A DNA stretch of 28,450 bases. Origin: a virus. Where the stretch lies: IMG/VR virus record IMGVR_UViG_3300028581_002006, positions 1 through 28,450 of that record. One strand, 5' to 3'. Within the stretch, counting starts at the first letter, position 1; each line of letters starts with the position of its first letter. The position numbers were made by a program, and so were the translations under genes. The notes beneath the pieces were generated by a model that did not search any database, was not told the origin of the DNA, and saw only the letters and a list, made by a program, of their open reading frames with translations. Shown piece by piece: positions 13,273-28,450 of the stretch.

Positions 13273-13297
13273 TAAGAGATCAAATAAGAGAGAAATT

Positions 13298-13525: not shown

Positions 13526-13533
13526 GAAATAAA

Positions 13534-13860
13534 ATGGCAACAATTTATAAATTATTGGGACAATTAGATCCAAATCCAAATACAAATGAGGATATTTACA
13601 GAGTCCCCGAAGGAGCTACTGCTATCACGTCGACATTGGCAATAGCTAATAGAAGTGCAACTTCAAAAAATTATCGAGTAGCGATAAGACCGAACGGAAA
13701 TACATTAAGTAATGTACATTATATTGCATATGATATTCCATTAAATGGTAACGATGCGGTAATGTTAACTTTAGGAATGACTTTACCTGCAAATACCGTA
13801 GTAACTGTAAGAAGTCAAGGCGAAGTAACTTATAATTTATTTGGCTCGGAAATAACATAA
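13534..13860 (+). CDS. virion-type beta-sandwich protein, 108 aa (first copy)
   Basis: Reads MATIYKLLGQ at the start and V-T-Y-N-L-F-G-S-E-I at the end, with a central motif L-T-L-G-M-T-L. It is clearly paralogous to the 109-residue protein at 17513, sharing start, the LTLGMTL block and F-G-[ST]-E-I. Small proteins of this pattern are abundant beside tail-fibre genes of marine T4-like phages and are usually listed as structural. AGGAAATAAA precedes the ATG, and its stop touches the next ATG. Confidence 0.8.
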   Translation: MATIYKLLGQLDPNPNTNEDIYRVPEGATAITSTLAIANRSATSKNYRVAIRPNGNTLSNVHYIAYDIPLNGNDAVMLTLGMTLPANTVVTVRSQGEVTYNLFGSEIT

Positions 13861-17286: not shown

Positions 17287-17298
17287 GATATTCTCAAA

Positions 17299-17306
17299 AA
17301 TAAATA
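17299..17306 (+). promoter_or_regulatory. weak late-type promoter box (AATAAATA)
   Basis: One mismatch from TATAAATA, 26 nt before the ATG at 17333. That is the same distance as the exact boxes before 11257 and 13298. In an AT-rich gap this could be chance, so the call rests on the position. Confidence 0.4.
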
Positions 17307-17332
17307 TATCAACAATAACATTCTAAACAAAT

Positions 17333-17503
17333 ATGACAACAAAAATATTAATAACACAAGTAGAAGCCGTACCCGGCGTAGCAACGCAAGGACAGAGTTT
17401 GTCACTTCAAGTAGGTGCAAATAACGCTATAATTGCCTCAGTAACATCTGCAGCTGGCGGCAGCAGCGACGAAATAGATTCATTCTTATTAGCAGGAATG
17501 TAA
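17333..17503 (+). CDS. small adhesin-cassette protein ending FLLAGM, 56 aa
   Basis: The protein opens MTTKILITQVEAVPGV, has a Gln/Ser/Ala-rich middle, and ends I-D-S-F-L-L-A-G-M. It parallels the 75-residue protein at 13298 in position and in its last residues, and is followed by the second copies of the other two cassette genes. No catalytic motif or membrane segment is visible. Probably a virion component. Confidence 0.7.
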   Translation: MTTKILITQVEAVPGVATQGQSLSLQVGANNAIIASVTSAAGGSSDEIDSFLLAGM

Positions 17504-17512
17504 AGGAACAAA

Positions 17513-17842
17513 ATGGCAACAACCTATAAGATTCTCGGGCAAGGAATGCCCACAGCAAATACATATTTTGATTTGTATACTGTACCTGCAAGTAATAGTG
17601 CAGTTACTTCCACACTAAATGTATGTAATACTACAGCATCAAATGTAACCTTTAGAATTCTTGTAAGACCGCAAGGCGCAGCAGCAAACGTATCACAGGC
17701 AATTGTATTTGATGCAGCACTGCCAGCACAAGATGCTATTGGCCTTACTTTAGGTATGACACTTGGTGCTACAGATAAAGTTACAGTATATTCATGGCAA
17801 GGTAACGTAGCCTTTTCATTATTCGGTACTGAGATTTACTAA
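17513..17842 (+). CDS. virion-type beta-sandwich protein, 109 aa (second copy)
   Basis: Starts MATTYKILGQ, contains L-T-L-G-M-T-L-G and ends F-S-L-F-G-T-E-I-Y. It is a paralogue of the protein at 13534. Hydrophobic strands alternate with Asn/Thr-rich loops and there are no catalytic residues. AGGAACAAA precedes the ATG. The stop shares one base with the start of the glycine-rich adhesin. The composition is more Ala/Gln-rich than the first copy, so the duplication is old or the copies came from different phages. Confidence 0.8.
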   Translation: MATTYKILGQGMPTANTYFDLYTVPASNSAVTSTLNVCNTTASNVTFRILVRPQGAAANVSQAIVFDAALPAQDAIGLTLGMTLGATDKVTVYSWQGNVAFSLFGTEIY

Positions 17843-18789
17843 TGTCAATTCGTCGTCTTTCCCAGAGAAGTATTCTATCTGTTAGTAATAGAGTAAACTC
17901 TGCCAACGTAAAAACAATACTAAGTGTACCTCCAAGACTTTATGCTGAGTATTTAGTTGTAGGTGGCGGTGGAGCTGGCGGTACCTATGGTGGAGGTGGA
18001 GGTGGCGGTGGCTATTTAACCAGTAATCTTAATATTATAGCAGGAAAAACATATGTTATAACTGTTGGTGCCGGTGGAGGTTACTCCGTAGATCCCAAAG
18101 CAGGTTTTAATGGTTCTAATAGTTCAATTATTTCAGACATATCACCATCTGCAAATGTAATAGCGTATGGTGGTGGTGGCGGAGGTGGTAGCGCTGAAGC
18201 CCCCACGGGCAGAAACAACGGCGGAAGTGGAGGCGGTGGTTCACAAGGCCAACCTGGCGGTATAGGTATATATCCAGGTTCTGCATTTGTAAGCGCTCCA
18301 AGGCAAGGATATGACGGTGGATTCGCACCAGGCGGTGGCAATTATCTTGGTGGAGGTGGCGGCGGCGCAGGACAAGCAGGATTTGAAGGATACAGCGGCT
18401 CCGATTTACCTCCAGGCAATAGAGGAAATGGTGGTAATGGATTAGTTTGGTTAAATGGAGTGTATTATGCCGGCGGTGGGGGTGGTAATGGATATCCAAC
18501 CAGTCACCGCAAGGGACAAGGTGGTCTTGGCGGTGGGGCAACTGCTCCAAGTGATTCAATTAGTCGCGGTGCGAATGCTACGATTAATACAGGCGGTGGC
18601 GGTGCAGCTGGCGGATATGGAGATCCAACATTTATTGTTGGAGGCTTCGGGGGATCCGGAGTTGTTATTATTAGATCTTTAGTTGTTGGTGCTACTACTG
18701 GATCAAATGTACTTGTTACCAGCGCAACATTAAACGGAGACGAAGCAGTTCAATACACATTCTATTCATCAGGCACAATAACATTCTAA
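17842..18789 (+). CDS. glycine-rich tail-fibre adhesin, 315 aa
   Basis: The N-terminus MSIRRLSQRS resembles that of the propeller protein at 13861. Residues about 35-275 are dominated by poly-Gly runs (GGGGG with A, N, Y and S), starting with Y-L-V-V-G-G-G-G-A-G-G and closing with G-G-S-G-V-V-I-I-R. This is the layout of polyglycine-type phage adhesins, such as the receptor-binding tips described in T-even phages. The final 35 residues form a non-Gly cap ending T-F-Y-S-S-G-T-I-T-F. The Gly-run loops probably contact the host receptor. Confidence 0.85.
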   Translation: MSIRRLSQRSILSVSNRVNSANVKTILSVPPRLYAEYLVVGGGGAGGTYGGGGGGGGYLTSNLNIIAGKTYVITVGAGGGYSVDPKAGFNGSNSSIISDISPSANVIAYGGGGGGGSAEAPTGRNNGGSGGGGSQGQPGGIGIYPGSAFVSAPRQGYDGGFAPGGGNYLGGGGGGAGQAGFEGYSGSDLPPGNRGNGGNGLVWLNGVYYAGGGGGNGYPTSHRKGQGGLGGGATAPSDSISRGANATINTGGGGAAGGYGDPTFIVGGFGGSGVVIIRSLVVGATTGSNVLVTSATLNGDEAVQYTFYSSGTITF

Positions 18790-18795
18790 ATAAAT

Positions 18796-19008
18796 ATGCA
18801 AACAATCGCAGAATTTGTCTTAAGTAATCCGGCTAACATAAACGCTGAGACTTTAGGTACAAGCGACCCTACCCTTGCTAAGCAAGAATTTGAGGCTCGG
18901 ATTACTTATGACAATATTATAACGGAAGCAGACCCAACTATGGTCTATATAAATAATAACACAATAATTGCCTGGTATGAAAAAGATGCTATGGTAGGAT
19001 TCATTTAA
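18796..19008 (+). CDS. hypothetical protein, 70 aa
   Basis: A soluble, acidic protein with no motif that I recognise; the middle is rich in Thr, Asn and Glu. It follows the glycine-rich adhesin by 6 nt, and the leader is TAAATAAAT with no clear ribosome-binding site, so translation may be coupled. The position suggests a virion or fibre-assembly role, but nothing in the sequence shows it. Confidence 0.6.
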   Translation: MQTIAEFVLSNPANINAETLGTSDPTLAKQEFEARITYDNIITEADPTMVYINNNTIIAWYEKDAMVGFI

Positions 19009-19021
19009 GGAGAGTAAGAAA

Positions 19022-19411
19022 ATGTCACATTTTGCACAAGTAGTTAATGGAATTGTAGCACAAGTTATTGTTGCTGAACAAGATTTCATAAATTCGGGAG
19101 CTGTCGGCGATCCAAGCCAATGGGTACAGACAAGCTATAATACATATGCGGGTGCCCATCGCAATGGCGGTACACCCTTACGTAAAAATTATGCCGGCAT
19201 CGGTATGGTTTATGATGCCGGCAGAGATGCATTCTATGCACCTCAACCATATCCAAGCTGGACTTTGGATGAAGCAACTTGCGTTTGGGGTGCACCTGTT
19301 GCACAACCAGATGTCGTTCTTCCAACAACCGAAGCAGACGGTACAGGTTGGCAATGGGATGAAGCAACAGTAAATTGGATAGCTGTAACTATTCCAAAAT
19401 TATCCGCTTAA
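19022..19411 (+). CDS. conserved phage protein, possibly structural, 129 aa
   Basis: AAGGAGAG precedes the ATG. The protein opens MSHFAQVVNGIVAQVIVAEQ and contains R-K-N-Y-A-G-I-G-x-x-Y-D, P-x-P-Y-P-S-W-T-L-D-E and W-x-W-D-E. Proteins with this exact layout are very common near tail genes of marine T4-like and other phages, but their function is not established to my knowledge. No membrane segment or catalytic motif is visible. It is the last gene before the terminator at 19430. Confidence 0.8.
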   Translation: MSHFAQVVNGIVAQVIVAEQDFINSGAVGDPSQWVQTSYNTYAGAHRNGGTPLRKNYAGIGMVYDAGRDAFYAPQPYPSWTLDEATCVWGAPVAQPDVVLPTTEADGTGWQWDEATVNWIAVTIPKLSA

Positions 19412-19429
19412 CGATTTGATTAAGCAAAG

Positions 19430-19454
19430 ACCCGGCATCTGACCGGGGTTTCTT
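19430..19454 (+). terminator. stem-loop terminator after the adhesin block
   Basis: CCCGG (19431-19435) pairs with CCGGG (19443-19447) around a 7-nt loop, followed by GTTTCTT. The stem is short but GC-rich in an AT-rich genome. The -35 box of the next promoter starts inside its T-rich tail. Confidence 0.6.
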
Positions 19455-19481
19455 GACTTCTGCAGTCAAGTGTTATATAAT
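19453..19481 (+). promoter_or_regulatory. sigma-70-like promoter for lysis genes
   Basis: TTGACT (19453-19458) and TATAAT (19476-19481) are separated by exactly 17 nt. It directly follows a stem-loop, the arrangement of T4-type PeSL cassettes. It would drive the endolysin and holin-candidate genes, with a leader of about 80 nt. Confidence 0.85.
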
Positions 19482-19501
19482 TAGTTCTGTGATATAGAAA
19501 T

Positions 19502-19551
19502 CCCCTGAGAAAAAAGTACTACAGCACCCTTTTTCTCAGTTTTCTGAGGGG
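19502..19551 (+). promoter_or_regulatory. leader hairpin(s) before the endolysin gene
   Basis: CTGAGAAAAA (19505-19514) pairs perfectly with TTTTTCTCAG (19530-19539). The overlapping left arm CCCCTGAGAAAA (19502-19513) can instead pair at 11 of 12 positions with TTTTCTGAGGGG (19540-19551). The two pairings share an arm and exclude each other unless they merge into one bulged stem. It lies between the promoter and AGGAG at 19561, so it could control endolysin timing. Confidence 0.55.
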
Positions 19552-19570
19552 AATAACCATAGGAGAAAAT

Positions 19571-20149
19571 ATGAATCTAAGTTTGAAACCTAATACTCTT
19601 AGAGTAGTAGATTGGTCAGCAAGGATGTTAAGAATAATTGGTTTATTACTTGTAATGTGGATAGTGTTTCTTGTATGTGATGAAAAACTCACTACATTAA
19701 AAGAAAGTAATAATCAATGGCAGACAGGTTATGTTAGTGCACAAGACAAATTGAAACAATTAGATTGTCTAACAAGAAATATTTACTGGGAAGCAGCGTC
19801 TGAGCCGTTTGAAGGTAAAGTAGGTGTAGCACAAGTAACGATGAATCGTTTAGAATCTGGCAGGTTTGCAGATACTGTATGTGGTGTAGTATATCAAAAG
19901 AATATAGTATATCAAAAGGTTGTATGTCAATTTAGTTGGTATTGTGAAAACAATCATGCTGTTAGACCCATACACAAAGAATTATGGAAAGAAAGTGAAT
20001 TGGTAGCTAAGAAAGTTCTTTTAGAAAATTTTAGATTACCATCTTTAAATAAGGCATTATATTACCATGCGGATTATGTTTCGCCTAATTGGCGCAAACC
20101 TAAAATTGATCAAATTGGCAGACATATATTCTATGGAGACAGAACATGA
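19571..20149 (+). CDS. SleB/CwlJ-type cell wall hydrolase, membrane-anchored endolysin
   Basis: This 192-residue protein has a single N-terminal hydrophobic segment (about 19-36), then a SleB-type hydrolase domain (Hydrolase_2 family). Its L-x-R-x-x-Y-W-E-A motif contains Glu74, the expected catalytic acid of these transglycosylase-like peptidoglycan hydrolases; Q-F-S-W and G-R-H-x-F-Y follow. The N-terminal helix would export it to the periplasm as a signal anchor. A strong AGGAG lies 5 nt before ATG. An 18-nt tandem duplication (19887-19918) inserts an extra Y-Q-K-N-I-V unit just before the QFSW region. It is the likely phage endolysin, next to a holin candidate. Confidence 0.85.
   Translation: MNLSLKPNTLRVVDWSARMLRIIGLLLVMWIVFLVCDEKLTTLKESNNQWQTGYVSAQDKLKQLDCLTRNIYWEAASEPFEGKVGVAQVTMNRLESGRFADTVCGVVYQKNIVYQKVVCQFSWYCENNHAVRPIHKELWKESELVAKKVLLENFRLPSLNKALYYHADYVSPNWRKPKIDQIGRHIFYGDRT
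19887..19918 (+). repeat. in-frame 18-nt tandem duplication in the endolysin gene
   Basis: The 14-mer TAGTATATCAAAAG occurs at 19887-19900 and again at 19905-19918, an offset of 18 nt. The protein therefore reads V-Y-Q-K-N-I-V-Y-Q-K. The perfect identity suggests a recent slippage event. Confidence 0.85.
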
Positions 20150-20448
20150 GATTCAATATTAATGCAATTAGAAACTTTCTAAACGAACATCTGCATAAAA
20201 TATCTGCAGATACGCTAGGATGGTTAGCAGCAATCGTAATACATTGTGCTACACTACCATCACTATTAGCGTTATTGACAGGTCTTAGTGACCACACCCC
20301 AAGCATAGATGTAGTTTTGTTTATGTGGACAGGTCTTGTTTTATTATTTGCTAGAGCAGTAGTCTTAAAAGACTCCTTAAATATAATTACAATCGGAGTA
20401 GGATTTATCGCTCAAGCAGCATTGATGGCACTAATACTTTTTAAATAA
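20146..20448 (+). CDS. small three-helix membrane protein, holin candidate
   Basis: This 100-residue protein has a charged N-terminus (about 20 residues) and three hydrophobic segments (about 23-45, 53-71, 77-98), ending in a single Lys. It overlaps the endolysin stop by ATGA. Size, number of helices and position next to a peptidoglycan hydrolase fit a class I holin, which would depolarise or perforate the inner membrane and trigger lysis. There is no sequence signature to prove it. The alternative is another lysis-cassette membrane protein. Confidence 0.6.
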   Translation: MRFNINAIRNFLNEHLHKISADTLGWLAAIVIHCATLPSLLALLTGLSDHTPSIDVVLFMWTGLVLLFARAVVLKDSLNIITIGVGFIAQAALMALILFK

Positions 20449-20449
20449 T

Positions 20450-20677
20450 ATGTCTAAACTTGAATTATGTGGCAGACCCTATGTGACATTTAATCCGTAC
20501 AATAAAGACCATCGAAAATGGTTTGCGGAATTCAACAAGAACCGCACTTGGTCTAAGTGTCCTGTTCGATTCGTTATAGATAACGACCACGGAGATCTTA
20601 TTACTATGATTCAGAGAAATCTGATACAATACTATGTAGATCGTGAATTTCGAAAAAGGTTGACGCCTTCACCTTAG
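20450..20677 (+). CDS. hypothetical protein, 75 aa
   Basis: A small basic soluble protein with N-P-Y-N-K-D-H-x-K-W-F and R-x-W-S-K-C-P-V-R-F motifs. It starts 1 nt after the holin-candidate stop. Its 3' end contains the promoter at 20660. I do not recognise the family; similar-looking short proteins occur in T4-like phages. Confidence 0.65.
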   Translation: MSKLELCGRPYVTFNPYNKDHRKWFAEFNKNRTWSKCPVRFVIDNDHGDLITMIQRNLIQYYVDREFRKRLTPSP

Positions 20678-20688
20678 TGTGTTATAAT
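20660..20688 (+). promoter_or_regulatory. sigma-70-like promoter
   Basis: TTGACG (20660-20665) and TATAAT (20683-20688) with a 17-nt spacer, the -10 extended by GTGT upstream. It begins inside the end of the preceding gene and lies 19 nt before the metallophosphoesterase ATG. No stem-loop precedes it. Confidence 0.85.
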
Positions 20689-20707
20689 ATGGCTTTAAGG
20701 AAATAAA

Positions 20708-21634
20708 ATGAAAATCGCACTTACATCAGATATTCATCTAGAATTTGGAGAATGGGTTCCCGTTAACCCAGAAAACGCTGACGTTTTAATTTTGTCTGGA
20801 GACATTTGCGTAGCAAAGGACTTAGGAGAAAAAGATTCATACAATCTTATGGGGGAGCATACCCGTAGTAATATGTATCATCGTTTCTTTGAAGCATGCT
20901 GCACAGAATATAAAGACGTTATCTATATCATGGGGAACCATGAGCATTATAATGGTGACTTTGCTGAGTCTTATAACACATTAAAGACAAAACTTGCCTA
21001 CCTACCAAGATTGCACATTCTTGAAAAAGAAATAGTAAAGATTGAAGATGTAACATTCATCGGTGGAACACTTTGGACAGACATGAACAATGAAGATCCC
21101 ATTACACTTCATGCAATGACACGTATGATGAATGACTTCCGTTGCGTAGATAATAGCAAACGAGATGCAGAACGCTGGGTTCCTACATATAAAATGAATG
21201 AGGATGGTAGCATCTTTAAAAATGAAAATGGTTTTCCTGAGCAAATAGGAGAAAAGCGTCAAAAGTATACACCTTTGTTCTCGCCCGTAGATGCAGTAGA
21301 TGAGCATAAGGGAATGCTTGGCTACATCAAGACTATTGTTGCTGAAAAAGGAAGTGATAAGTTTGTTGTGGTTGGTCATCATGCTCCATCTAAGCAATCT
21401 ACTAAGCCTCGCTACAAAAATGATACTGTTATGAACGGTGGTTATTCTTCTGATCTATCAGAGTTTATTTTAGATAGACCACAGATCAAAGCATGGACAC
21501 ACGGACATACACATGATTTGTTTGATTATATGATTGGTAGTACTCGTATAGTATGTAACCCTCGAGGATATGTACTATATGAAAGAGGTAGCAATGATGA
21601 AGAACCATATCTACCATACGTTTTTGAAGTATGA
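20708..21634 (+). CDS. calcineurin-like metallophosphoesterase, 308 aa
   Basis: All motifs of the metallophosphoesterase fold are present: Asp8 and His10 (SDIH), Asp32 (SGDIC), Asn77 and His78 (GNHEH), V-G-H-H-A-P near residue 222, and G-H-T-H near 266. These ligate two metal ions that hydrolyse phosphomono- or diesters. Between the third and fourth motifs sits an insertion of about 60 residues rich in charged residues. The substrate is unknown; in phages such enzymes may act on nucleic acids, nucleotides or modified proteins. AAGGAAATAAA precedes the ATG, and it is driven by the promoter at 20660. Confidence 0.9.
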   Translation: MKIALTSDIHLEFGEWVPVNPENADVLILSGDICVAKDLGEKDSYNLMGEHTRSNMYHRFFEACCTEYKDVIYIMGNHEHYNGDFAESYNTLKTKLAYLPRLHILEKEIVKIEDVTFIGGTLWTDMNNEDPITLHAMTRMMNDFRCVDNSKRDAERWVPTYKMNEDGSIFKNENGFPEQIGEKRQKYTPLFSPVDAVDEHKGMLGYIKTIVAEKGSDKFVVVGHHAPSKQSTKPRYKNDTVMNGGYSSDLSEFILDRPQIKAWTHGHTHDLFDYMIGSTRIVCNPRGYVLYERGSNDEEPYLPYVFEV

Positions 21635-21774
21635 CAGACGAAGAAGCACTTCAACTTTATGCTTTGATGCGGGAGCGCTGGGGGGATAAATTACCCGACC
21701 CCGATGTGCATCCCGCATCTTTTTCTTATTTTGTTAAACTATATCGTTATTTGAGTAGAAATAACATACTATGA
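21631..21774 (+). CDS. hypothetical protein, 47 aa
   Basis: Begins in an ATGA overlap with the phosphoesterase stop and ends in an ATGA overlap with the next gene. It is a helical, charged protein with W-G-D-K-L-P-D-P-D-V-H-P in the middle and a Tyr-rich end. No known function. The double overlap supports it as real. Confidence 0.65.
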   Translation: MTDEEALQLYALMRERWGDKLPDPDVHPASFSYFVKLYRYLSRNNIL

Positions 21775-21980
21775 TTATAGTCGACAATATGGATCATATG
21801 CTAGAGCTCTATGAAGTTGCTAGTAGATCTGGCTCACAGCCTAAGTATTGGACAACGTCTAGAGAATTTAAATTAGATCCTTTGTTTATACAAAAAGAAA
21901 AAACATATGAGGAAGATCTTGTACTAAAGAAAAAGGAATATCCGTTTGTACTATCAACAATACCACAACTAAAAAGATGA
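21771..21980 (+). CDS. hypothetical protein, 69 aa
   Basis: A charged soluble protein opening MIIVDNMDHMLELYEVAS, with a Lys/Glu-rich C-terminal half. It overlaps the genes on both sides by 4 nt, so it is translated as part of the metallophosphoesterase operon. No motif recognised. Confidence 0.65.
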   Translation: MIIVDNMDHMLELYEVASRSGSQPKYWTTSREFKLDPLFIQKEKTYEEDLVLKKKEYPFVLSTIPQLKR

Positions 21981-22777
21981 AGTATTTACTAGCATTTTTA
22001 TTCTTTATATGCTCAAATGTATATGCACAAACAGGATCCTATTTGCTATATGATTTTGAATTAGGAACTTCGCAAGTAGCACACAATATAAATGAGGTTA
22101 GGCCAATAGCAAGTATTACTAAATTATTCACTGCTATAATTATATTAAGAAGCGGCGAAGATTTAAATGAAAAGGTAAAGGTTCAGGGCAAAAGCAGTGG
22201 CAGGTTCCCAAGAGGGACAAAGATAGCTAGAATCGATCTGCTGCGCGCGATGCTTATTAGTTCAGACAACTTAGCAGCGGAGACACTTGCAAATACATAT
22301 CCAGGTGGATTTAAAAAGTATATACACGATGTAAATCAATATGCCAGAGGTATGGGGCTTATTAATACTAAACTTGTAGATAGTACAGGATTATTATCGG
22401 GCAATATAAGCACAGCAAAAGAATTAATTGTATTTCTATCAAAGATAGAAGCCAATGAGGTTATACGTAATATTGCAAATGAAAGACACGATTCAATTTC
22501 CGTACCGAAGGGTAAGAAGAAATTAATCATTAAACTACGCAACACAAATCCTAGTCTATTTGTATTTGATAATATTATAATAAGTAAAACAGGATTCACC
22601 AACCCTGCAGGTAGATGTGTGGTCATGCTTGTAGAGAAAAATAATAAACTATATGGCATAGCCATACTTGGTCAAAAGAATGTTAGAGATCGTTCTGAAA
22701 TTGCAAGAGAATTAATTCAATTGGAAGCATTGGAAGCGCCGAAAGATGAACCAATCGAATTCGTATTCCCAATTTGA
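21977..22777 (+). CDS. periplasmic D-Ala-D-Ala peptidase (S11 family)
   Basis: This 266-residue protein starts with a signal peptide (cleavage probably after VYA, residue 17). The penicillin-binding-protein triad follows: S-I-T-K (Ser46 nucleophile, Lys49), S-D-N (96-98) and K-T-G (204-206). This is the low-molecular-weight PBP/DacA-PbpG family, which trims or cleaves D,D-bonds in peptidoglycan peptides. The protein lacks the long C-terminal beta domain and membrane anchor of PBP5, so it is closer in size to the endopeptidase PBP7. It may assist lysis, remodel the wall during infection, or alter the wall against rivals. It is the last gene of its operon. Confidence 0.9.
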   Translation: MKYLLAFLFFICSNVYAQTGSYLLYDFELGTSQVAHNINEVRPIASITKLFTAIIILRSGEDLNEKVKVQGKSSGRFPRGTKIARIDLLRAMLISSDNLAAETLANTYPGGFKKYIHDVNQYARGMGLINTKLVDSTGLLSGNISTAKELIVFLSKIEANEVIRNIANERHDSISVPKGKKKLIIKLRNTNPSLFVFDNIIISKTGFTNPAGRCVVMLVEKNNKLYGIAILGQKNVRDRSEIARELIQLEALEAPKDEPIEFVFPI

Positions 22778-22788
22778 ACAACTATAAT

Positions 22789-22817
22789 TTGACACGCAAA
22801 GCAAACGGCTTTATAAT
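22789..22817 (+). promoter_or_regulatory. sigma-70-like promoter of early gene cluster
   Basis: TTGACA (22789-22794) and TATAAT (22812-22817) with a 17-nt spacer, 23 nt before the ATG at 22841. This is a consensus -35 and -10. No stem-loop precedes it. Confidence 0.88.
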
Positions 22818-22840
22818 CAAGTACAACCTCAAGGAATTAT

Positions 22841-23074
22841 ATGTCTTACTCAATTAATGGACTAACTCTAGAACAAGTCGAAATGCTAGACGAAATGTGG
22901 TCACTCGAATCTGAAGAAGAGTTTCTAATTTGGTATGCTTGTCTCGATGAAGATAAGCAACACACTGCAGATTTGCTTCAACGATTGTTGATTATGGAAG
23001 CAATGGACAACGACTTAATGGAGACCAAGAAGTTTCCTGACGCTAAAAAAGCCTTAAAGAAGTTTATGATATGA
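22841..23074 (+). CDS. acidic hypothetical early protein, 77 aa
   Basis: CAAGGAATTAT precedes the ATG. The protein is strongly acidic and helical, with L-T-L-E-Q-V-E-M-L-D-E and many Asp/Glu, and a basic C-terminus (K-K-A-L-K-K-F). It is the first gene after the promoter at 22789. Early, acidic, small proteins in T-even-like phages often bind host proteins; no specific target can be read. It overlaps the next gene by 4 nt. Confidence 0.75.
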   Translation: MSYSINGLTLEQVEMLDEMWSLESEEEFLIWYACLDEDKQHTADLLQRLLIMEAMDNDLMETKKFPDAKKALKKFMI

Positions 23075-23286
23075 ACATTATGGTAAAACCTCTACATCAA
23101 AGAATAGATATAGAAGCGGCATTAAATCGTTTTTATAGTACAAGCGTATTACACTACGGCGATGGTTCATACGCGGCAGGTGCTTTCTTTATCACCCTTG
23201 CAGAAATAGCAGCAAACCTGCCAAGACACGAACAAGATAAAATTTTAGATAAATTTGCTAACCTAGAAAAACAATTAATGAAATGA
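23071..23286 (+). CDS. hypothetical early protein, 71 aa
   Basis: A helical protein with D-G-S-Y-A-A-G-A-F-F-I-T-L-A in the middle. It overlaps both neighbours by 4 nt. There may be a second start at Met4. Family not recognised. Confidence 0.7.
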   Translation: MNIMVKPLHQRIDIEAALNRFYSTSVLHYGDGSYAAGAFFITLAEIAANLPRHEQDKILDKFANLEKQLMK

Positions 23287-23573
23287 AAGAACCATACCAG
23301 GCTTTAGTACAATATCCAAAGCGTACTCATGAATATGCGAATACTATAGATATTAACAAGTTAATTGACGAATCAATGTCTGATACAAGTGGTAAATGGA
23401 TGTCCAAAGACCACATAAAACAATATACTAAGCAAATAGTTAAATTGTGCATAGATGCTGTTGAAAATACACCAACAAATCATTCATACACAACATATGA
23501 TGCTAGCCTTGCAGAGGCTACGATTGAAAGAAGCGTAAAAAATATCAAATCTAAATTCGGTTACCATGACTGA
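23283..23573 (+). CDS. hypothetical early protein, 96 aa
   Basis: Soluble protein with D-K-x-x-H-I-K-Q-Y-T-K-Q-I-V-K-L-C-I in the middle and a basic C-terminus. ATGA overlap with the previous gene and an 8-nt overlap with the next. No recognised motif. Confidence 0.7.
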   Translation: MKEPYQALVQYPKRTHEYANTIDINKLIDESMSDTSGKWMSKDHIKQYTKQIVKLCIDAVENTPTNHSYTTYDASLAEATIERSVKNIKSKFGYHD

Positions 23574-23793
23574 GAAGATATTGAAAAATTCTTATTACCA
23601 AATAAGTGTAGAAATGCACGATGGTTTTAAGTTTAAAGTTCCTGCTAGGGGGTTTAATTTGAAATCTCTGTTGGAGTTTGAGAAATCTCTAGATTATGTG
23701 ACAAAGTATTCGTACAAGGAAATAACTCTTAGAGAATATGAAAAATTGATTTATGGTAAACCAGATTCTAAACCTAACAGAAGGATTAACTAA
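23566..23793 (+). CDS. hypothetical early protein, 75 aa
   Basis: A basic protein opening MTEKILKNSYYQISVEMHDG, with Lys/Tyr-rich helices and a C-terminal P-D-S-K-P-N-R-R. No known family. It overlaps the gene before by 8 nt and ends 1 nt before the next ATG. Confidence 0.7.
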   Translation: MTEKILKNSYYQISVEMHDGFKFKVPARGFNLKSLLEFEKSLDYVTKYSYKEITLREYEKLIYGKPDSKPNRRIN

Positions 23794-23794
23794 A

Positions 23795-24052
23795 ATGGAC
23801 TTAGATTCATATCTAACATTCACTATTGCGTCATTACTAATTAGTATTGGCCTTCTCTTTTTATCAGCCACTTTAATTATATTAAATAATATCTTTCATA
23901 AGTTTTGGAAACCTGTTAAAATTTTTACTCCGGATAGTTGGAAGGGGTTCTTCCCTCCACAATATTCTCCACAATATTCTCAAGAGCCAGAACTGATAAA
24001 CGACGCTGGCATTGATAAATCTAAAGAACCAAAGTTAAAAGAAGTTAAATGA
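23795..24052 (+). CDS. small membrane protein with PQYS repeat, 85 aa
   Basis: GAAGGA stands 9 nt before ATG 23795, which also begins the natural N-terminus; an upstream ATG at 23753 in the same frame would add 14 residues that overlap the previous gene. One strong hydrophobic helix (about 7-30), then a basic stretch with W-K-P-V-K and D-S-W-K-G-F-F-P, a duplicated PQYS, and a charged tail (K-L-K-E-V-K). The tail is probably cytoplasmic. Function unknown. Confidence 0.7.
   Translation: MDLDSYLTFTIASLLISIGLLFLSATLIILNNIFHKFWKPVKIFTPDSWKGFFPPQYSPQYSQEPELINDAGIDKSKEPKLKEVK
23957..23980 (+). repeat. perfect 12-nt tandem duplication
   Basis: CCACAATATTCT occurs twice without gap (23957-23968 and 23969-23980), giving P-Q-Y-S-P-Q-Y-S in the small membrane protein. 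It is in frame and identical, so probably recent. Confidence 0.9.
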
Positions 24053-24177
24053 AATTAATAGCTGGGCTACTAGTAATACTATCATTCACAATGGTTATCT
24101 TGACATGGAACGAGCCTAGCTGTTTACCTTGGATAATTGCATTGATAGGTTGGATACCTCACGTCGATAAAAGGTAA
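24049..24177 (+). CDS. tiny membrane protein, 42 aa
   Basis: ATGA overlap with the previous gene. Almost the whole protein is hydrophobic: two helices (about 3-19 and 26-37) split by W-N-E-P-S-C-L-P, ending H-V-D-K-R. Its stop codon lies within the left arm of the hairpin at 24169, so ribosomes ending here would touch that structure. Function unknown. Confidence 0.65.
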   Translation: MKLIAGLLVILSFTMVILTWNEPSCLPWIIALIGWIPHVDKR

Positions 24178-24223
24178 AACCTTTTTATTACCTTTTAGTA
24201 ACCCTGCCGAGTGCAGGGTTTTT
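24169..24223 (+). terminator. double stem-loop terminator
   Basis: The first hairpin pairs AAAAGGTAA (24169-24177) with TTACCTTTT (24188-24196). The second pairs AACCCTGC (24200-24207) with GCAGGGTT (24213-24220) around CGAGT and runs into five T, a good rho-independent terminator. The promoter at 24225 begins 2 nt later. Confidence 0.85.
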
Positions 24224-24224
24224 C

Positions 24225-24253
24225 TTGACTTTCTGATCAAAAGGCTATATAAT
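24225..24253 (+). promoter_or_regulatory. sigma-70-like promoter, PeSL-type cassette
   Basis: TTGACT (24225-24230) and TATAAT (24248-24253) with a 17-nt spacer, directly behind the terminator. The expected +1 falls at about 24260, which is the ATG of the GIY-YIG gene. Confidence 0.88.
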
Positions 24254-24259
24254 TATGGC

Positions 24260-24565
24260 ATGATGAGAAAAAGACGTTCAGATCGTAGACATATAGTATA
24301 TTGCCTGACCAATTGTGTCACAGGCGATTTCTATATAGGTATCACTCAGGGTTTCCGTAAGAGAGACCTCAAGATCCGTGTGCAAAAGCACATACGTAGA
24401 GCATTGACTGAGGGTAAGTCCTGGGCATTGTGCGACGCTATAAGGTCCTACGGGGCGGGCTCGTTCGTTGCTCAAGAACTAGCAGTGGTCAAGGGCAAGC
24501 AAGCCGCACATGCTGTAGAACGAGAATTAATTGGTGAGTACTCACCAACATTGAACTCGCAGTAA
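24260..24565 (+). CDS. GIY-YIG nuclease domain protein, 101 aa
   Basis: Y-C-L-T-N ... D-F-Y-I-G-I-T (14-29) is the GIY-YIG core. A conserved Arg region (GFRKRDL, 31-37), a His (Q-K-H), a late Glu (V-E-R-E-L-I) and P-T-L-N complete the nuclease fold, which uses one metal ion to cut DNA. The single domain has no DNA-binding extension. GC content is visibly higher than in the neighbouring genes, suggesting separate origin. It could be a homing-type nuclease, a host-DNA degrading early enzyme, or a nuclease against competitors. The start may be 24260 or 24263; with the promoter just upstream there is no room for a leader. Confidence 0.85.
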   Translation: MMRKRRSDRRHIVYCLTNCVTGDFYIGITQGFRKRDLKIRVQKHIRRALTEGKSWALCDAIRSYGAGSFVAQELAVVKGKQAAHAVERELIGEYSPTLNSQ

Positions 24566-24585
24566 CCCTACAATGAAAAGGGTTA
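24563..24585 (+). terminator. stem-loop after the GIY-YIG gene
   Basis: TAACCCT (24563-24569) pairs with AGGGTTA (24579-24585) around a 9-nt loop. Only TTGCTT follows, so termination would be weak. It precedes a promoter by 4 nt, as in the other stem-loop/promoter units. Confidence 0.5.
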
Positions 24586-24589
24586 TTGC

Positions 24590-24618
24590 TTGATTAATGT
24601 TCCATTAGACATTATAAT
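24590..24618 (+). promoter_or_regulatory. sigma-70-like promoter
   Basis: TTGATT (24590-24595) and TATAAT (24613-24618) with a 17-nt spacer, 30 nt before the ATG at 24649, whose leader contains AGAAAGGAAAC. Confidence 0.8.
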
Positions 24619-24648
24619 AAGACATATTAGCAACAGAAAGGAAACAAA

Positions 24649-24858
24649 ATGCAAGCAATCAAAGATCTCCCAGCTGTCCCAAAAGTTGTAGCTCGAGAAA
24701 TGCAAGAAGACGCATTGGCGCAGTTTTTTGCTAACGGTGGAACTGTAGAAGTTCTCAAGGGTCGCAAAAATCCTAAGCCAGTATCTGCTCGAGGCAAATC
24801 CAATTCAGGTATGAAACCTATGGTTGACCCAACAGCACGCTTTCCTAAAAAGGATTAA
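24649..24858 (+). CDS. hypothetical early protein, 69 aa
   Basis: GAAAGGAAACAAA stands before the ATG. The N-terminal half is helical (A-R-E-M-Q-E-D-A-L-A-Q-F-F) and the C-terminal half is basic and Pro/Gly/Ser-rich, probably flexible and suited to bind nucleic acid. No family recognised. Confidence 0.75.
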   Translation: MQAIKDLPAVPKVVAREMQEDALAQFFANGGTVEVLKGRKNPKPVSARGKSNSGMKPMVDPTARFPKKD

Positions 24859-24859
24859 T

Positions 24860-25114
24860 ATGAAAACGAAACAGATCATTCCGGGTGTGAACAATCATCA
24901 ACGATTCAGAGTGATTTTGAATGGTGTGGGATTCTTTACAACTGTAAAAGAAATGACTAATATGCCATTCACAGAACAGCGTGTAGCAGTTTGGTTGGCG
25001 ATTGAGCGTATGAAGAATGGTCATCCGAATAGCACGGGGTTTGCTACGACACATCGTTTCTATGATGCACAGATGCAGTCAAAGGAATATCAAGTTCAAG
25101 TTGATTTAGTATAA
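24860..25114 (+). CDS. hypothetical early protein, 84 aa
   Basis: AAAAGGA stands 6 nt before ATG 24860; an upstream in-frame ATG at 24824 lies inside the previous gene and is less likely. Contains F-R-V-I-L-N-G-V-G-F-F and E-Q-R-V-A-V-W-L-A-I-E-R. Small and soluble, with no known motif. Confidence 0.7.
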   Translation: MKTKQIIPGVNNHQRFRVILNGVGFFTTVKEMTNMPFTEQRVAVWLAIERMKNGHPNSTGFATTHRFYDAQMQSKEYQVQVDLV

Positions 25115-25123
25115 GGATATAGT

Positions 25124-25294
25124 ATGAGTAAAATGTCAGATATACATATGCAAATTAATGATTTGCTGGATAACACCAAGCTTATGATTGATGAGATTGC
25201 AAACATTCTCGAAATCCCTGAGATTTGGGTTGCAGAGGTTGTTCTTGAGCGTTGGGAAAGGATTAAAGCCGACGCAGGAGTTACAAATGATTAA
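25124..25294 (+). CDS. small helix-turn-helix-like protein, 56 aa
   Basis: ATAAGGATATAGT precedes the ATG. Residues about 20-46 read like a short winged or simple HTH: I-D-E-I-A-N-I-L-E-I-P-E-I-W-V-A-E-V. This resembles many phage mini-regulators in which the IP-x-x-WV element is the recognition-helix side. It may bind DNA or a host protein. Function unproven. It overlaps the next gene by 8 nt. Confidence 0.65.
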   Translation: MSKMSDIHMQINDLLDNTKLMIDEIANILEIPEIWVAEVVLERWERIKADAGVTND

Positions 25295-25592
25295 TACAGC
25301 AGTGGCAATGGCAGTGCCATTGGATAGGTGCAGTTACTTTCCAAAGACAAGGAAATTGTTTATACCCGTTGAAGCATTCAAAGGTGTGATACCTGCAGGA
25401 AGTCGTTATCCTAGTACATTCTTTGTAAGATCACACTTTACAAACAACATACTTGAATTTAGGCCAGTACAACCTGACGATCCTCTATTTGATGAGGATC
25501 AATGGGATGGCGAGATGCAAGTATATAGACCATGCAACGGTGTAGTATCTAAAATTGATTACGCAGTTGTAGCACACGAGGATTTAGCATGA
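25287..25592 (+). CDS. hypothetical early protein, 101 aa
   Basis: GCAGGAG stands 6 nt before ATG 25287; an upstream in-frame start near 25188 lies inside the preceding gene and lacks a site. The protein is beta-rich, with F-I-P-V-E-A-F-K-G-V-I-P-A-G-S-R and acidic P-D-D-P-L-F-D-E-D-Q-W-D. No family recognised. Confidence 0.72.
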   Translation: MINTAVAMAVPLDRCSYFPKTRKLFIPVEAFKGVIPAGSRYPSTFFVRSHFTNNILEFRPVQPDDPLFDEDQWDGEMQVYRPCNGVVSKIDYAVVAHEDLA

Positions 25593-25825
25593 ACCGTTTA
25601 GAAATTGTAAAACTTGCATCCAAGATTGGTGCTAATGTAGACGCGCCAGCAAATTGGGTATTTACACTAGATCAACTTGAGGCATATACAAATGCTATTA
25701 TACCAAAGCCATTAGATGAACATCGTCTAGATGAGTATTTGCCTGCATGGGCGTATTTGGAAATGACTGATGGTATGCGAAGAGAAATTGTTCAAGTAAT
25801 TCAGAAACAACTAGGAGTGCTATAA
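25589..25825 (+). CDS. hypothetical early protein, 78 aa
   Basis: ATGA overlap with the previous gene. Mostly helical, with W-V-F-T-L-D-Q-L-E-A-Y and a central L-D-E-H-R-L-D-E-Y-L-P-A-W-A-Y. No motif recognised. Confidence 0.7.
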   Translation: MNRLEIVKLASKIGANVDAPANWVFTLDQLEAYTNAIIPKPLDEHRLDEYLPAWAYLEMTDGMRREIVQVIQKQLGVL

Positions 25826-25827
25826 TC

Positions 25828-26250
25828 ATGATGCCAGCAGGTGAATATTATATCGGCGACTTGTGTTATGTAATGACAGATGAGGAGTGGGAAGAGTTCT
25901 GTTCTATTACTATATCTACAGACGACAAGTGCTTAGACGGAGAATTTCAACTAAAGGATGGTCGTCGTTTTGCCACATACGGGACTATGTATGGCGATGG
26001 TGTATACTACGACCACTATGGGCATAGTTATTCTGTTGACGCTGGTCTAATTGGTTGTATTCTTGTAGAGGATATCAAGGCAAAAAAGTATGATAATTTG
26101 CTTGATCTCGGAGCCATCCAAAAGTTTGATACTAATTTTGTAACAGGCGGTGGTAAAGGAATCAAAGGCTGGGAAAACGGTGAAATTTTATTCGGCCATA
26201 TAGTAATAGAAACAAATACAACAAATACGATGGAGGAAGAGTATGAGTGA
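25828..26250 (+). CDS. conserved phage protein, 140 aa
   Basis: Opens MMPAGEYYIGDLCYVM and contains G-R-x-F-A-T-Y-G-T-M-Y-G-D-G-V-Y, S-V-D-A-G-L-I-G and a Gly-rich loop. Proteins beginning G-x-Y-Y-I-G-D-x-C-Y-V are widespread in phages and bacteria, but I know of no assigned activity. It is probably a soluble beta-barrel-like fold. GGAG lies 11 nt before the first ATG. Confidence 0.78.
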   Translation: MMPAGEYYIGDLCYVMTDEEWEEFCSITISTDDKCLDGEFQLKDGRRFATYGTMYGDGVYYDHYGHSYSVDAGLIGCILVEDIKAKKYDNLLDLGAIQKFDTNFVTGGGKGIKGWENGEILFGHIVIETNTTNTMEEEYE

Positions 26251-26422
26251 TTTTGATGTAGCACCTACAGGATACATGCGAGAAATTGCTCTGTCCCGAG
26301 CATTAGCAAATCAAATTGCTGACGCCATTAATGAAAAAGTAGAACTGCCCTTGAAAGTTGTGCAAGCATACAATCGTTTATACGGTGAATATATTAGGCA
26401 GCAACAAGCAGGTGAGATGTGA
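26243..26422 (+). CDS. hypothetical early protein, 59 aa
   Basis: GGAGGAAGAGT precedes the ATG. A helical protein with an amphipathic middle (L-A-N-Q-I-A-D-A-I-N-E-K-V) and a Gln-rich end. It overlaps the previous gene by 8 nt, and its stop shares a base with the next ATG. No known family. Confidence 0.65.
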   Translation: MSDFDVAPTGYMREIALSRALANQIADAINEKVELPLKVVQAYNRLYGEYIRQQQAGEM

Positions 26423-26934
26423 TGTGGCGTAAGAAAGAAATAGCAAAGTTAGTAGAAAAGGATAATATGCCTAAAGCATATATTCTAATCGGTCTGCCTG
26501 GTACAGGTAAGTCAACATGGATTAAGCAGCAGACTTGGGCATTGGGGCTAACTGTAGTTTCAACAGACCCGTTCATTGAAGATTATGCAAGAGCACAGGG
26601 CAAGACTTATTCAGATGTGTTTGAAAGCTATATGCCGCAGGCAGTTGAACTAATGGTTGCTCAAGTTGTTAGAGCACGTGAGCTTGGGCATAGTATAATA
26701 TGGGATCAAACATCTACAACGATTGCTAGTCGCAAAAGAAAATTCAATATGCTAGGTGACAGGTATGATATGATTGCTGTAGTGTTCATGACACCCGAAA
26801 AGGATGAATGGCAACGACGCTTGGCCTCACGACCAGGCAAAGTCATTCCTGATTATGTAATATCAGATATGCAAAAGAACTTTGAATATCCTAGATATGC
26901 TGAAGGATTTAGCAAAATGTATTTGGTAGGATAA
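26422..26934 (+). CDS. P-loop kinase related to polynucleotide kinases, 170 aa
   Basis: A Walker A motif G-L-P-G-T-G-K-S-T (24-32) follows a hydrophobic strand; V-S-T-D and W-D-Q-T-S give a Walker-B-like and a switch region, and R-R-L-A-S-R-P-G-K resembles the lid of AAA_33/zeta-type kinases. T4 Pnk has a similar N-terminal kinase domain, but no C-terminal phosphatase is present here. It would phosphorylate a nucleic-acid end, a nucleoside or another small substrate. An alternative start at 26467, with AAAAGGA just upstream, would remove the first 15 residues and matches usual homologue starts. Confidence 0.82.
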   Translation: MWRKKEIAKLVEKDNMPKAYILIGLPGTGKSTWIKQQTWALGLTVVSTDPFIEDYARAQGKTYSDVFESYMPQAVELMVAQVVRARELGHSIIWDQTSTTIASRKRKFNMLGDRYDMIAVVFMTPEKDEWQRRLASRPGKVIPDYVISDMQKNFEYPRYAEGFSKMYLVG

Positions 26935-27056
26935 TGGAACTATTCTGGCGAGTAATAGAAGATGATTTATACTACATTATTGCTTTGATATTTACAAGCG
27001 TATTTGCTTTTGACTTGGGTTTACTTATAGGTTTTATAATAACTAAGACCATCTGA
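26934..27056 (+). CDS. tiny membrane protein, 40 aa
   Basis: Starts one base before the end of the kinase stop. A short acidic N-terminus (V-I-E-D-D-L-Y-Y) is followed by a single hydrophobic helix (about 13-36). It probably sits in the inner membrane. Function unknown. Confidence 0.6.
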   Translation: MELFWRVIEDDLYYIIALIFTSVFAFDLGLLIGFIITKTI

Positions 27057-27063
27057 AGGTGTA

Positions 27064-27107
27064 ATAAAAAGGTTTTACCTTTAGTACCCGAGCGTACTGA
27101 AGGGGTT
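27064..27107 (+). terminator. stem-loops of the third stem-loop/promoter unit
   Basis: AAAGGT (27068-27073) pairs with ACCTTT (27077-27082), and AGTAC (27083-27087 with flanking A/T) pairs with GTACT (27094-27098). There is no clean T-run, so terminator strength is uncertain. The order TTACCTTT-AGTA-CCC matches the unit at 24188-24204. Confidence 0.5.
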
Positions 27108-27111
27108 CTGC

Positions 27112-27140
27112 TTGGCGATCTGATCATTAGGTGTTATAAT
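27112..27140 (+). promoter_or_regulatory. sigma-70-like promoter, PeSL-type cassette
   Basis: TTGGCG (27112-27117) and TATAAT (27135-27140) with a 17-nt spacer. CTGATCA and the GGTGTTATAATTATG context repeat those near 24225 and 27719. The -35 is the least consensus of the seven. Confidence 0.75.
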
Positions 27141-27168
27141 TATGACATAGCAACAAAGGAGTTAGTAA

Positions 27169-27411
27169 ATGACAGAAAGCGAGCAAAAGATGTTTGGTAT
27201 CAGTGTAGAACAAATCAAAGAAGAATATATGCAATCTTTAACAGCCCGCTTGAGTGGTCTGGAAATGGTAGCAATGGGTGTGTTAAGCGACGCTCAAGAA
27301 TTGATGTCATTCGGTCACGAGCAGGCAGTAGACCAAGCGCGCAAAAATATTAACATTGCAAAGTTCATTCTTTCAGAAATGATGGAAAACAGAAACAAGG
27401 AAACAGTATGA
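27169..27411 (+). CDS. helical hypothetical early protein, 80 aa
   Basis: AAAGGAGTTAGT precedes the ATG. Almost entirely helical and acidic, with S-G-L-E-M-V-A-M-G-V-L-S-D-A-Q-E-L. Proteins of this look are common in T4-like cyanophages, with unknown role. ATGA overlap with the next gene. Confidence 0.75.
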   Translation: MTESEQKMFGISVEQIKEEYMQSLTARLSGLEMVAMGVLSDAQELMSFGHEQAVDQARKNINIAKFILSEMMENRNKETV

Positions 27412-27722
27412 AATTGTTGATTACAACTCAAATTTACGAAAACTATGGTGCCCATGAATGGGATGGCAAAGGCGAGTGCCCTCAGTATTGGAAAGCCAAA
27501 GGCGGGATGGATTATGCCGTGCGAGGTATTAAGAACAGCGAACTAGCAACGATGGCTGTCATGTCGTTGCGAGACAAGATTGAACAGAACAATGAATACT
27601 ACCGTGAGAGTATCATTGGTTGGGTTTTGGTCAGCAATGATTATTTGACAGACTTTGAAAAGTCTCAACTTGAGCATGAAGGCAAAATTAGATTTTCACC
27701 AAAAGAGTTAGAGTGGGCTTGA
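27408..27722 (+). CDS. conserved phage protein, 104 aa
   Basis: Opens MKLLITTQIYENYGAHEWDG, followed by G-E-C-P-Q-Y-W-K-x-K-G-G. This start is shared by many T4-like phage proteins and some plasmid proteins without assigned function. It is soluble, with a C-terminal helix rich in Glu/Lys. The promoter at 27719 begins at its last codon. Confidence 0.78.
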   Translation: MKLLITTQIYENYGAHEWDGKGECPQYWKAKGGMDYAVRGIKNSELATMAVMSLRDKIEQNNEYYRESIIGWVLVSNDYLTDFEKSQLEHEGKIRFSPKELEWA

Positions 27723-27747
27723 CACAGAATACAAAAGGTGTTATAAT
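27719..27747 (+). promoter_or_regulatory. sigma-70-like promoter
   Basis: TTGACA (27719-27724) and TATAAT (27742-27747) with a 17-nt spacer, overlapping the stop codon of the previous gene. Consensus boxes, with GGTGT just before the -10. Confidence 0.88.
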
Positions 27748-27773
27748 TAAGACCCAGAACAGAAAGGTATATC

Positions 27774-28025
27774 ATGTTTCAATTGACATCTGAGCAAGAG
27801 CAAATGATTAACTCTGTAACAGATTATACATTTGATTTTAGAGATAAAGATTTCTCTGAAGAACTTGAAATTACAACTGAGCTATCAATCTACAATGCTA
27901 CGCAGTTCGCAAAGTCCGAAGACTTAGGTGGCTTAACAGTATACTATAATAAAGATAAAGACTTAGTTGCATTTTATGATTATGAGATGCAGTGTGGTCA
28001 TGTATTTGAAACAGAAACAGTTTAA
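27774..28025 (+). CDS. acidic hypothetical early protein, 83 aa
   Basis: CAGAAAGGTATATC precedes the ATG, 26 nt after the -10 box. The protein is very acidic (D-F-R-D-K-D-F-S-E-E-L-E) with a Cys and His near the end (Q-C-G-H). Small acidic early proteins may mimic DNA or bind host factors; no evidence beyond composition. Confidence 0.75.
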   Translation: MFQLTSEQEQMINSVTDYTFDFRDKDFSEELEITTELSIYNATQFAKSEDLGGLTVYYNKDKDLVAFYDYEMQCGHVFETETV

Positions 28026-28036
28026 GGGGAACTAAG

Positions 28037-28276
28037 ATGTTAGAGTATAAAGTTAAAGATTATGGTATGTTCTCATCTGAAGGCAATGAAGCAGTTCATG
28101 ATATTGTAGTACAGGCTGTAGAAAATAGTTGGCATTGGGCTAAGACTTATGCTGAACTTAGACAATTGGCTGATAGCAATGAGGATATGTACGGCGAAGC
28201 AATGGACACTATAGTTCGCGAAATCGTATATGACGCAATTGGTGCAGATAAACGAGGTGAGAATTTTTACTTATGA
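28037..28276 (+). CDS. hypothetical early protein, 79 aa
   Basis: AAGGGGAACTAAG stands before the ATG. An acidic helical protein with N-S-W-H-W-A-K-T-Y-A-E-L-R in the middle. Overlaps the next gene by 4 nt. No family recognised. Confidence 0.72.
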   Translation: MLEYKVKDYGMFSSEGNEAVHDIVVQAVENSWHWAKTYAELRQLADSNEDMYGEAMDTIVREIVYDAIGADKRGENFYL

Positions 28277-28419
28277 ATGATGAATTGAAAAAGCTAGTAA
28301 TTCAGGCTGGCGCACCTAAAGAGATTTTGAATGACCTTTGGTTCAATATCTTTTGTCAGAAGTTTGTAGATTTACTATTGACACAGGCAGAGGAAGAGGT
28401 ATTTGGAGTAACTGAATGA
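28273..28419 (+). CDS. hypothetical early protein, 48 aa
   Basis: ATGA overlap at both ends. A short helical protein with A-G-A-P-K-E-I-L-N-D-L-W-F-N-I-F-C-Q-K-F and an acidic tail (A-E-E-E-V-F-G-V-T-E). Function unknown. Confidence 0.65.
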   Translation: MNDELKKLVIQAGAPKEILNDLWFNIFCQKFVDLLLTQAEEEVFGVTE

Positions 28420-28450
28420 AACTTCAAATAAAATTACCCTGGGCTTTGGG
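28416..28450 (+). CDS. start of a further gene, cut by the window end
   Basis: An ATG overlapping the preceding stop as ATGA opens MKLQIKLPWALG and is still open at the window edge. Only 11 full codons are visible, so nothing can be said about its product. Confidence 0.5.
   Translation, partial: MKLQIKLPWAL

Follow-up and report, generated by a model that had tools for sequence, protein, structure and literature searches.

The 28,450-base viral sequence analysed here (the complete IMG/VR record IMGVR_UViG_3300028581_002006, hereafter the window) probably joins the end of a late, structural gene block to the start of a hypervariable early-gene block, in which there would be seven early promoters, four of them in stop-and-restart cassettes that make gene modules exchangeable, and in which an invariant 16-bp box, TAAAACCTTTTTATTA, would act as a recognition sequence at the level of DNA. 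All seven promoters lie on the same strand, four of them follow stem-loops, two cassettes are diverged copies of each other, and in related loci similar cassettes are followed by different genes. A preliminary description of the region, made from the sequence alone, had likened these units to the promoter-early stem-loops (PeSLs) of T4-type phages and placed them in a lineage outside the classical examples; architecture, location and phage type bear this out, and the gene shuffling that the comparison implies is only partly supported.

In the mechanism we propose, a host sigma70-type RNA polymerase would read the seven early promoters, and at four of them the stem-loop after the preceding gene would halt or weaken incoming transcription, which the promoter would restart at once. 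Each gene or small operon would then be a self-contained module of terminator, promoter, leader and gene, and the similar ends of such modules would allow the gain, loss or replacement of a gene lying between two cassettes while its neighbours stay undisturbed. Direct cassette repeats would sometimes recombine, with deletion or insertion of the intervening DNA, and the box, which overlaps or adjoins the preceding gene's stop codon, may move or spread with the cassettes. Sigma70 use and recombination at the cassettes are what we infer from the features described below.

Early-type promoters and their stem-loops

The seven promoters named in the preliminary description are all present, each with an exact TATAAT and a 17-nucleotide (nt) spacer. 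Their -35 hexamers match TTGACA fully at 22789 and 27719, with one mismatch at 19453, 20660 and 24225, and with two at 24590 (TTGATT) and 27112 (TTGGCG). Under a second-order Markov model of the window, sites with at most two -35 mismatches and a 17-nt spacer averaged 1.0 with a maximum of 5, and none of 1000 simulations reached the seven observed; with at most one mismatch, five were seen against a mean of 0.14 and a maximum of 2. The minus strand holds one near-perfect site with a 17-nt spacer. A looser scan of positions 9000-28450 gave no excess (69 sites found, 75.4 expected), so the promoter signal is confined to near-perfect sites. That scan is the one result that would suit chance look-alikes in AT-rich DNA, an explanation we consider very improbable, as the simulations and the strand bias reported next refute it at the level of sequence and the spacer and leader are conserved.

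Judged by sequence pattern, the promoters form a genome-wide class in the relatives. A scan of whole records for TTGACN-N17-TATAAT sites gave strand splits of 30:1 in G001 (222 kb) and 32:1 in G002 (190 kb), against 0-1 sites per strand for a backward-pattern control. The sole minority-strand site of each record (G001 153234-153262, G002 45791-45819) stands back to back with a cassette promoter and has a similar spacer (CCCCTTTTGGTGT). Further relatives were recruited as 80 viral loci with the metallophosphoesterase gene that lies behind the second promoter (the best 80 of 242). Among them, TATAAT sites with at most one TTGACA mismatch on the coding strand had a 17-nt spacer in 148 cases and a 16-nt spacer in 30, and the opposite strand had 3 sites with a 17-nt spacer; like the strand counts of G001 and G002, these numbers include duplicates, and the 148 are not independent because of kinship. 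A logo of 104 promoters reads GCTTGACA-N7-CCAAAAGGTGTTATAAT, an extended -10 form. The comparisons below use 138 promoters from the window, eight related sequences and 29 further loci, with those differing at six or fewer of 47 nt counted as one.

Early timing is suggested by the position of the promoters relative to TATAAATA, named as a T4-type late motif in a passage of PMC2984593. In the window this motif occurs only at 11228, 13265, 14754 and 18948 (the last two within open reading frames, ORFs) and not after 19430, and all seven promoter sites come after these four.

Folding upheld the earlier claim that the promoters at 19453, 24225, 24590 and 27112 directly follow stem-loops, making four of the seven in the window that are joined to one; transcription is predicted to terminate there. 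Among the 138 promoters, a CCC..GGG stem of at least 4 bp lies just upstream of 28, compared with 0.62% of 20,000 random windows, and a general hairpin test gave 29, compared with 7.6%.

A pair of cassette copies and an invariant box

The units at 24169 and 27064 had been described as diverged copies, and we reach the same conclusion: with the hexamers masked, the likeness between 24225 and 27112, the best of 21 pairs, was attained by 1 of 1000 shuffles and by none of 300 random window segments. The next pairs, 24225/24590, 24590/27112 and 27112/27719, were matched by 19, 30 and 44 of 1000 shuffles, and the remaining 17 by more than 50. A further likeness, overlooked in the earlier direct comparison, is a stretch of 22 nt at 24170-24191 that recurs without mismatch, but inverted, at 27061-27082.

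Inside this stretch lies the box. The window and the eight related sequences (702,654 bases) contain 20 exact copies where 0.005 are expected, although some of these sequences are closely related and the copies are therefore not independent. Each record has one to three, and all 20 are followed at a distance of 25-52 nt by an early-type promoter, a count that takes in the TTGGCG promoters found in the window and in its closest relative, L006. The best match in the 100 nt upstream of the 138 promoters is exact in 15 cases, has two mismatches in one and never has one or three, background beginning at four; a search for the 15-base core with one mismatch allowed added a single place, in G001, away from promoters. 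About ten kinds of sequence follow the box, including the GIY-YIG gene, several small genes, a gene of 300 amino acids (aa) and a stretch without a clear ORF. Ahead of the MTE(S/R)EQKMFG gene it is inverted in the window and L006 and direct in G005 (L037); similarly, it is direct in G003 (L090) and inverted in L195 and L198 ahead of a gene that looks related by eye. Its use either way round suggests that the box would be read in DNA and not in RNA.

The box starts with TAA on either strand. In 19 of 29 listed copies the preceding ORF stops no more than 5 nt from the start of the box or with the box's own TAA, a plain count without a chance control that takes ORFs of at least 35 aa mechanically and includes one that is probably a chance ORF (L283). 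Matches judged by eye to be chance, forward in L191 and L192 and inverted in L193, L194, L196 and L197, were left out of the 29. Copies with GGTAA arms fold at -5.8 to -6.7 kcal/mol, whereas a TTAA-armed copy reaches 0 and the L195 type -0.7 kcal/mol, which indicates that the conserved thing is the sequence and not the fold. An intrinsic terminator hairpin, which we also considered, suits the GGTAA arms and is weakened by the TTAA-armed copy that does not fold and the L195 type that barely does. The core has no exact match in RB49, HTVC008M, Melnitz, Mosig or S-SKS1 (Mosig has one match with one mismatch) and was not found in the literature searched. Three stretches in bacterial genomes that combine box and promoter appear by eye to be chance.

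Most simply, the box would be a DNA-level recognition sequence. All-or-none conservation of this kind requires either a protein that reads the box or a mechanism that copies it. We tentatively suggest that it belongs to an undescribed system in this T4-type lineage, in which an element starting with TAA on either strand would come to lie where genes end, a short way before early promoters, and could face either way at one locus in related phages. It would stay exact because a phage or host protein (a recombinase, nuclease or regulator) must read it; such an element could be a site-specific handle for module exchange or control. An exact box that is free in its orientation is a concrete, falsifiable target, and it is the part of the region likely to surprise a specialist. 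Alternatively, and no less doubtfully, the box could be an operator that sets some of the early promoters apart and is bound by a regulatory protein of phage or host origin. Its all-or-none conservation in either orientation would fit an operator, as would the copies with little or no hairpin, but its distance to the -35 varies over the range given above, such invariance across phages is rare for operators, and it is the preceding stop codon, not the promoter, that most listed copies keep close to.

Gene exchange at the cassettes

The genes that similar cassettes lead into behind the GIY-YIG gene differ between three groups: L205 and L207; L211-L214, L216 and L218-L221; and the window type. 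Within the stretch compared, no cassette follows the gene in L019, L206, L215, L217, L222, L224 or L225. At a place where L207 has a single cassette, two are present in L212 and L220, separated by 1.8 and 3.3 kb and with a repeat overlap of 55-58 nt, a pattern as expected if direct cassette repeats had recombined. Insertions, deletions and replacements came to 48 unique events after de-duplication of 92. Of their 96 ends, 26 fall in cassettes, compared with 11.5% by local chance, and eight events have both ends there. Direct-repeat overlap of at least 17 nt was found in four events, three with both ends and one with one end in a cassette, all in a single cluster (L205, L207, L212 and L220). 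An enrichment of breakpoints at cassettes, apparent in this count and in a cruder test before it, was mostly removed by a control for gene boundaries, leaving cassettes 1.5-fold above plain gene boundaries when counted per boundary. Cassette-bounded indels with repeat overlap therefore appear in the one cluster, and breakpoints per kb show no excess at cassettes. Recombination at cassettes is thus only partly supported, by single apparent cases and not as a general rule.

The cassettes may instead be static operon punctuation, that is, ordinary terminators each followed by the next promoter, which selection maintains in a compact genome and which play no part in gene shuffling. We give this account an appreciable chance, though one short of even. 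All nine loci compared have the endolysin cassette in one position, so that it is not mobile there, breakpoints track gene boundaries generally (0.64 per kb in cassettes and 0.62 at plain gene boundaries, 48 events), and none of the four events listed between the window and L006 is bounded by cassettes. Static punctuation does not lead one to expect the direct-repeat indels bounded by cassettes among L205, L207, L212 and L220, the different cargo behind similar cassettes after the GIY-YIG gene, or a box that recurs in about ten gene contexts.

The three observations that favour static punctuation weigh against our proposal of exchangeable early modules, and others do so too. The L207 sequence breaks off some 75 nt inside the gene that follows its cassette, and the downstream match is short. 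The cruder breakpoint test placed 48 of 276 ends near promoters (17.4%, with 12.1% expected). That all seven units are copies of one cassette had to be rejected, there being one clear pair only. A clear T run is present only at the 24200 stem-loop, the other three directly joined stem-loops of the window being without a long one. The pairing of stem-loop and promoter is far above chance yet missing at about four fifths of promoters (110 of the 138 have no CCC..GGG stem-loop), and the median upstream folding energy is near random (-5.6 vs -5.1). Early and late motif counts in 20-kb bins overlap more in G001 and G002 than in the window. Lastly, no capsid gene was recognised in the window, whose T4-type nature rests on relatives.

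The GIY-YIG gene

Movement driven by the GIY-YIG endonuclease itself, which would cut the box or cassette and have it copied by repair, is in our judgement improbable. The gene does lie between two cassettes in the window, and the box is upstream of it in the window, L006, G001, G002, G005, G006, L019 and L280. Many loci, however, have no box in the 125 nt upstream of the gene (L205-L207, L211-L222, L224 and L225), and the gene went undetected in six of seven further box-bearing records searched, all of which are or may be fragments. A tie between box and gene was rejected, as either is found without the other. The gene also sits at one same place in all eight loci that have it, which speaks against the sporadic presence of a homing unit, empty sites not having been searched for systematically. 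The comparison of this locus covered 39 of the loci found.

By Pfam the protein is a weak match (PF01541, E 4.5e-4, 20.9 bits against a cut-off of 22.6). It has 101 aa in five of eight listed copies, the other three being longer through mechanical start choice. The 6 nt between the -10 box and the ATG are kept in all 23 close relatives compared and, because the gene starts so near the -10, its mRNA is predicted to be leaderless (24248-24265); the same stretch can act as leader in other cassettes. In distant relatives the TATAAT lies 6-7 nt (such as L230-L232 and L238) or 8-10 nt (such as L239, L241 and L255) from the gene, far away in L248 and L263, and is missing in L240. Upstream of the gene in L206, L215, L217, L222, L224 and L225 the opposite strand seems, by eye, to hold a similar promoter with its own leader, and may carry a reverse-oriented module.

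Comparison with known systems

PeSLs are reportedly present in the T4-type phages RB49, phi1, T4/PST and KVP40/nt-1, and excised mini-circles are said to be among their traits. In PeSLs, as here, a stem-loop stands directly ahead of a strong sigma70-type early promoter, many similar copies exist, and the setting is a hypervariable region of a T4-type phage with gene indels between relatives; the strength, sigma70 type and early class of the window promoters are judged by sequence only. The cassettes thus resemble PeSLs by anatomy, and the phage appears to represent a further lineage with PeSL-like cassettes, outside the coliphages of the classical examples.

The lineage is a different one, the Gp23 of a relative being nearest to phages filed under Kyanoviridae, and the details of the cassettes differ as well. 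Nearly all spacers here are 17 nt long with a CCAAAAGG motif, whereas three stretches of RB49 contain nine spacers of 16 nt and ten of 17 nt. For spacers of 15-19 nt, such sites in RB49 number 24 on the coding strand and 2 on the opposite one. RB49 is without the 16-bp box, and some of its promoter spacers contain a hairpin, which was not seen in the present cassettes. TTGAC-N15..19-TATAAT sites also occur in HTVC008M, Mosig, Melnitz and Synechococcus phage S-SKS1; as 12 of the 13 in HTVC008M have a 17-nt spacer, this length is not special to the present phage. These cultured relatives have fewer sites per genome (Melnitz 14, HTVC008M 13, Mosig 7, S-SKS1 18), other spacer motifs, and strand splits of 10:4, 8:5, 5:2 and 0:18, respectively. 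For Melnitz, part of PMC9004378 reports 31 early promoters and six terminators. A section of PMC4503421 describes PeSLs and argues that they are not what produced a gene-rich insert in cyanophage S-PM2.

In the literature searched we found no report of PeSL-like cassettes in such an uncultivated T4-type lineage; the present loci would extend them to one, and offer many places for testing cassette-driven gene exchange. Repetitive extragenic palindromic (REP) and miniature inverted-repeat transposable element (MITE)-like elements of bacteria are small mobile or repeated palindromes. Like the box they are short, palindrome-armed, found between genes in several copies and in both orientations; the box differs in having few copies per record, an exact core and, for all 20 of its exact copies in the records covered, an early-type promoter nearby.

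Phage lineage and relatives

Indirect evidence makes the phage an uncultivated T4-type one: G001, G002 and G003, which share gene order or cassettes with the window, encode the T4-type capsid protein Gp23 (E below 1e-140; three of six records searched, the other three being shorter). Between G001 and Pelagibacter phage HTVC008M, Gp23 identity is 66.6%. The top seven matches of the G001 protein, among the best 12 of 2503 matching records, are to HTVC008M, Mosig and Melnitz phages, which are filed under Kyanoviridae in the three records inspected. From the endolysin gene on, gene order is largely common to the window, G001, G002, G005 and G006, and a gene map of ten loci shows the early region as a mosaic of small genes whose order changes between loci. 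No cultured close relative was found by nucleotide match to window positions 1-25000 or with the GIY-YIG protein, and no known RNA family appeared in 19000-28450 up to E 1. Some loci are redundant: L067, L069 and L070 yield the same promoters, L006 is close to the window, and L211, L213, L218, L220 and L221 are 99.9-100% identical in their overlaps.

Further features of the region

Coordinates are collected in Table 1.

Table 1. Promoters, stem-loops, box copies and the endonuclease-like gene in the window
Feature	Position	Strand	Remarks
Stem-loop CCCGG..CCGGG	19431..19447	+	After ORF ending 19411; -9.4 kcal/mol, z -1.6
Promoter, early-type	19453..19481	+	For endolysin gene (19571-20149); dyad TTGACT-N5-AGTCAA spans -35
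Promoter, early-type	20660..20688	+	Overlaps end of ORF 20450-20677, ahead of metallophosphoesterase gene (20708-21634); no stem-loop found
Promoter, early-type	22789..22817	+	12/12 consensus bases; no stem-loop found
AT-rich stem-loop TAAAAGGTAA..TTACCTTTTA around box	24168..24197	+	Box TAA is stop codon of preceding 42-aa ORF
Box TAAAACCTTTTTATTA, direct	24175..24190	+	Invariant 16 bp
Terminator-like stem-loop AACCCTGC-CGAGT-GCAGGGTT with T run	24200..24220	+	-12.4 kcal/mol, z -4.5
Promoter, early-type	24225..24253	+	For GIY-YIG gene; -10 end 6 nt ahead of ATG
GIY-YIG endonuclease-like protein, 101 aa	24260..24565	+	Between two cassettes; PHROG 5123, E 5.6e-9
11-bp stem-loop	24559..24589	+	Abuts -35 hexamer; -15.0 kcal/mol, z -5.0
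Promoter, early-type (TTGATT)	24590..24618	+	For ORF 24649-24858
Box TAAAACCTTTTTATTA, inverted	27062..27077	-	5 nt past stop of 40-aa ORF
10-bp stem-loop CCTTTAGTAC-CCGAGC-GTACTGAAGG	27078..27103	+	-13.4 kcal/mol, z -2.6
Promoter, early-type (TTGGCG)	27112..27140	+	For ORF 27169-27411
Promoter, early-type	27719..27747	+	12/12 consensus bases, for ORF 27774-28025; no stem-loop found

The -35 hexamer of the endolysin promoter lies inside a dyad at 19452-19470, of which TTGAC-N7-GTCAA is conserved throughout the nine endolysin promoters compared. In L008 and L019 both arms have changed in a compensating way (TTGACA..TGTCAA), while L067 and L037 are mismatched at the sixth position. A dyad at such spacing is present in five of the 138 promoters, all five of them endolysin promoters, and it is possibly an operator for the lysis gene. 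The endolysin leader (19486-19570) could fold around the ribosome site at -18.6 kcal/mol, with a z-score of only -1.3, and most of the nine loci retain a TGTGA..AAATCCC stretch. Downstream of the endolysin gene, 21977-22777 encodes a peptidase-like protein (PHROG 5304), and 26419-26934 encodes a P-loop kinase-like protein (AAA_33, E 1.3e-17) that also gives a weak zeta-toxin match below the cut-off.

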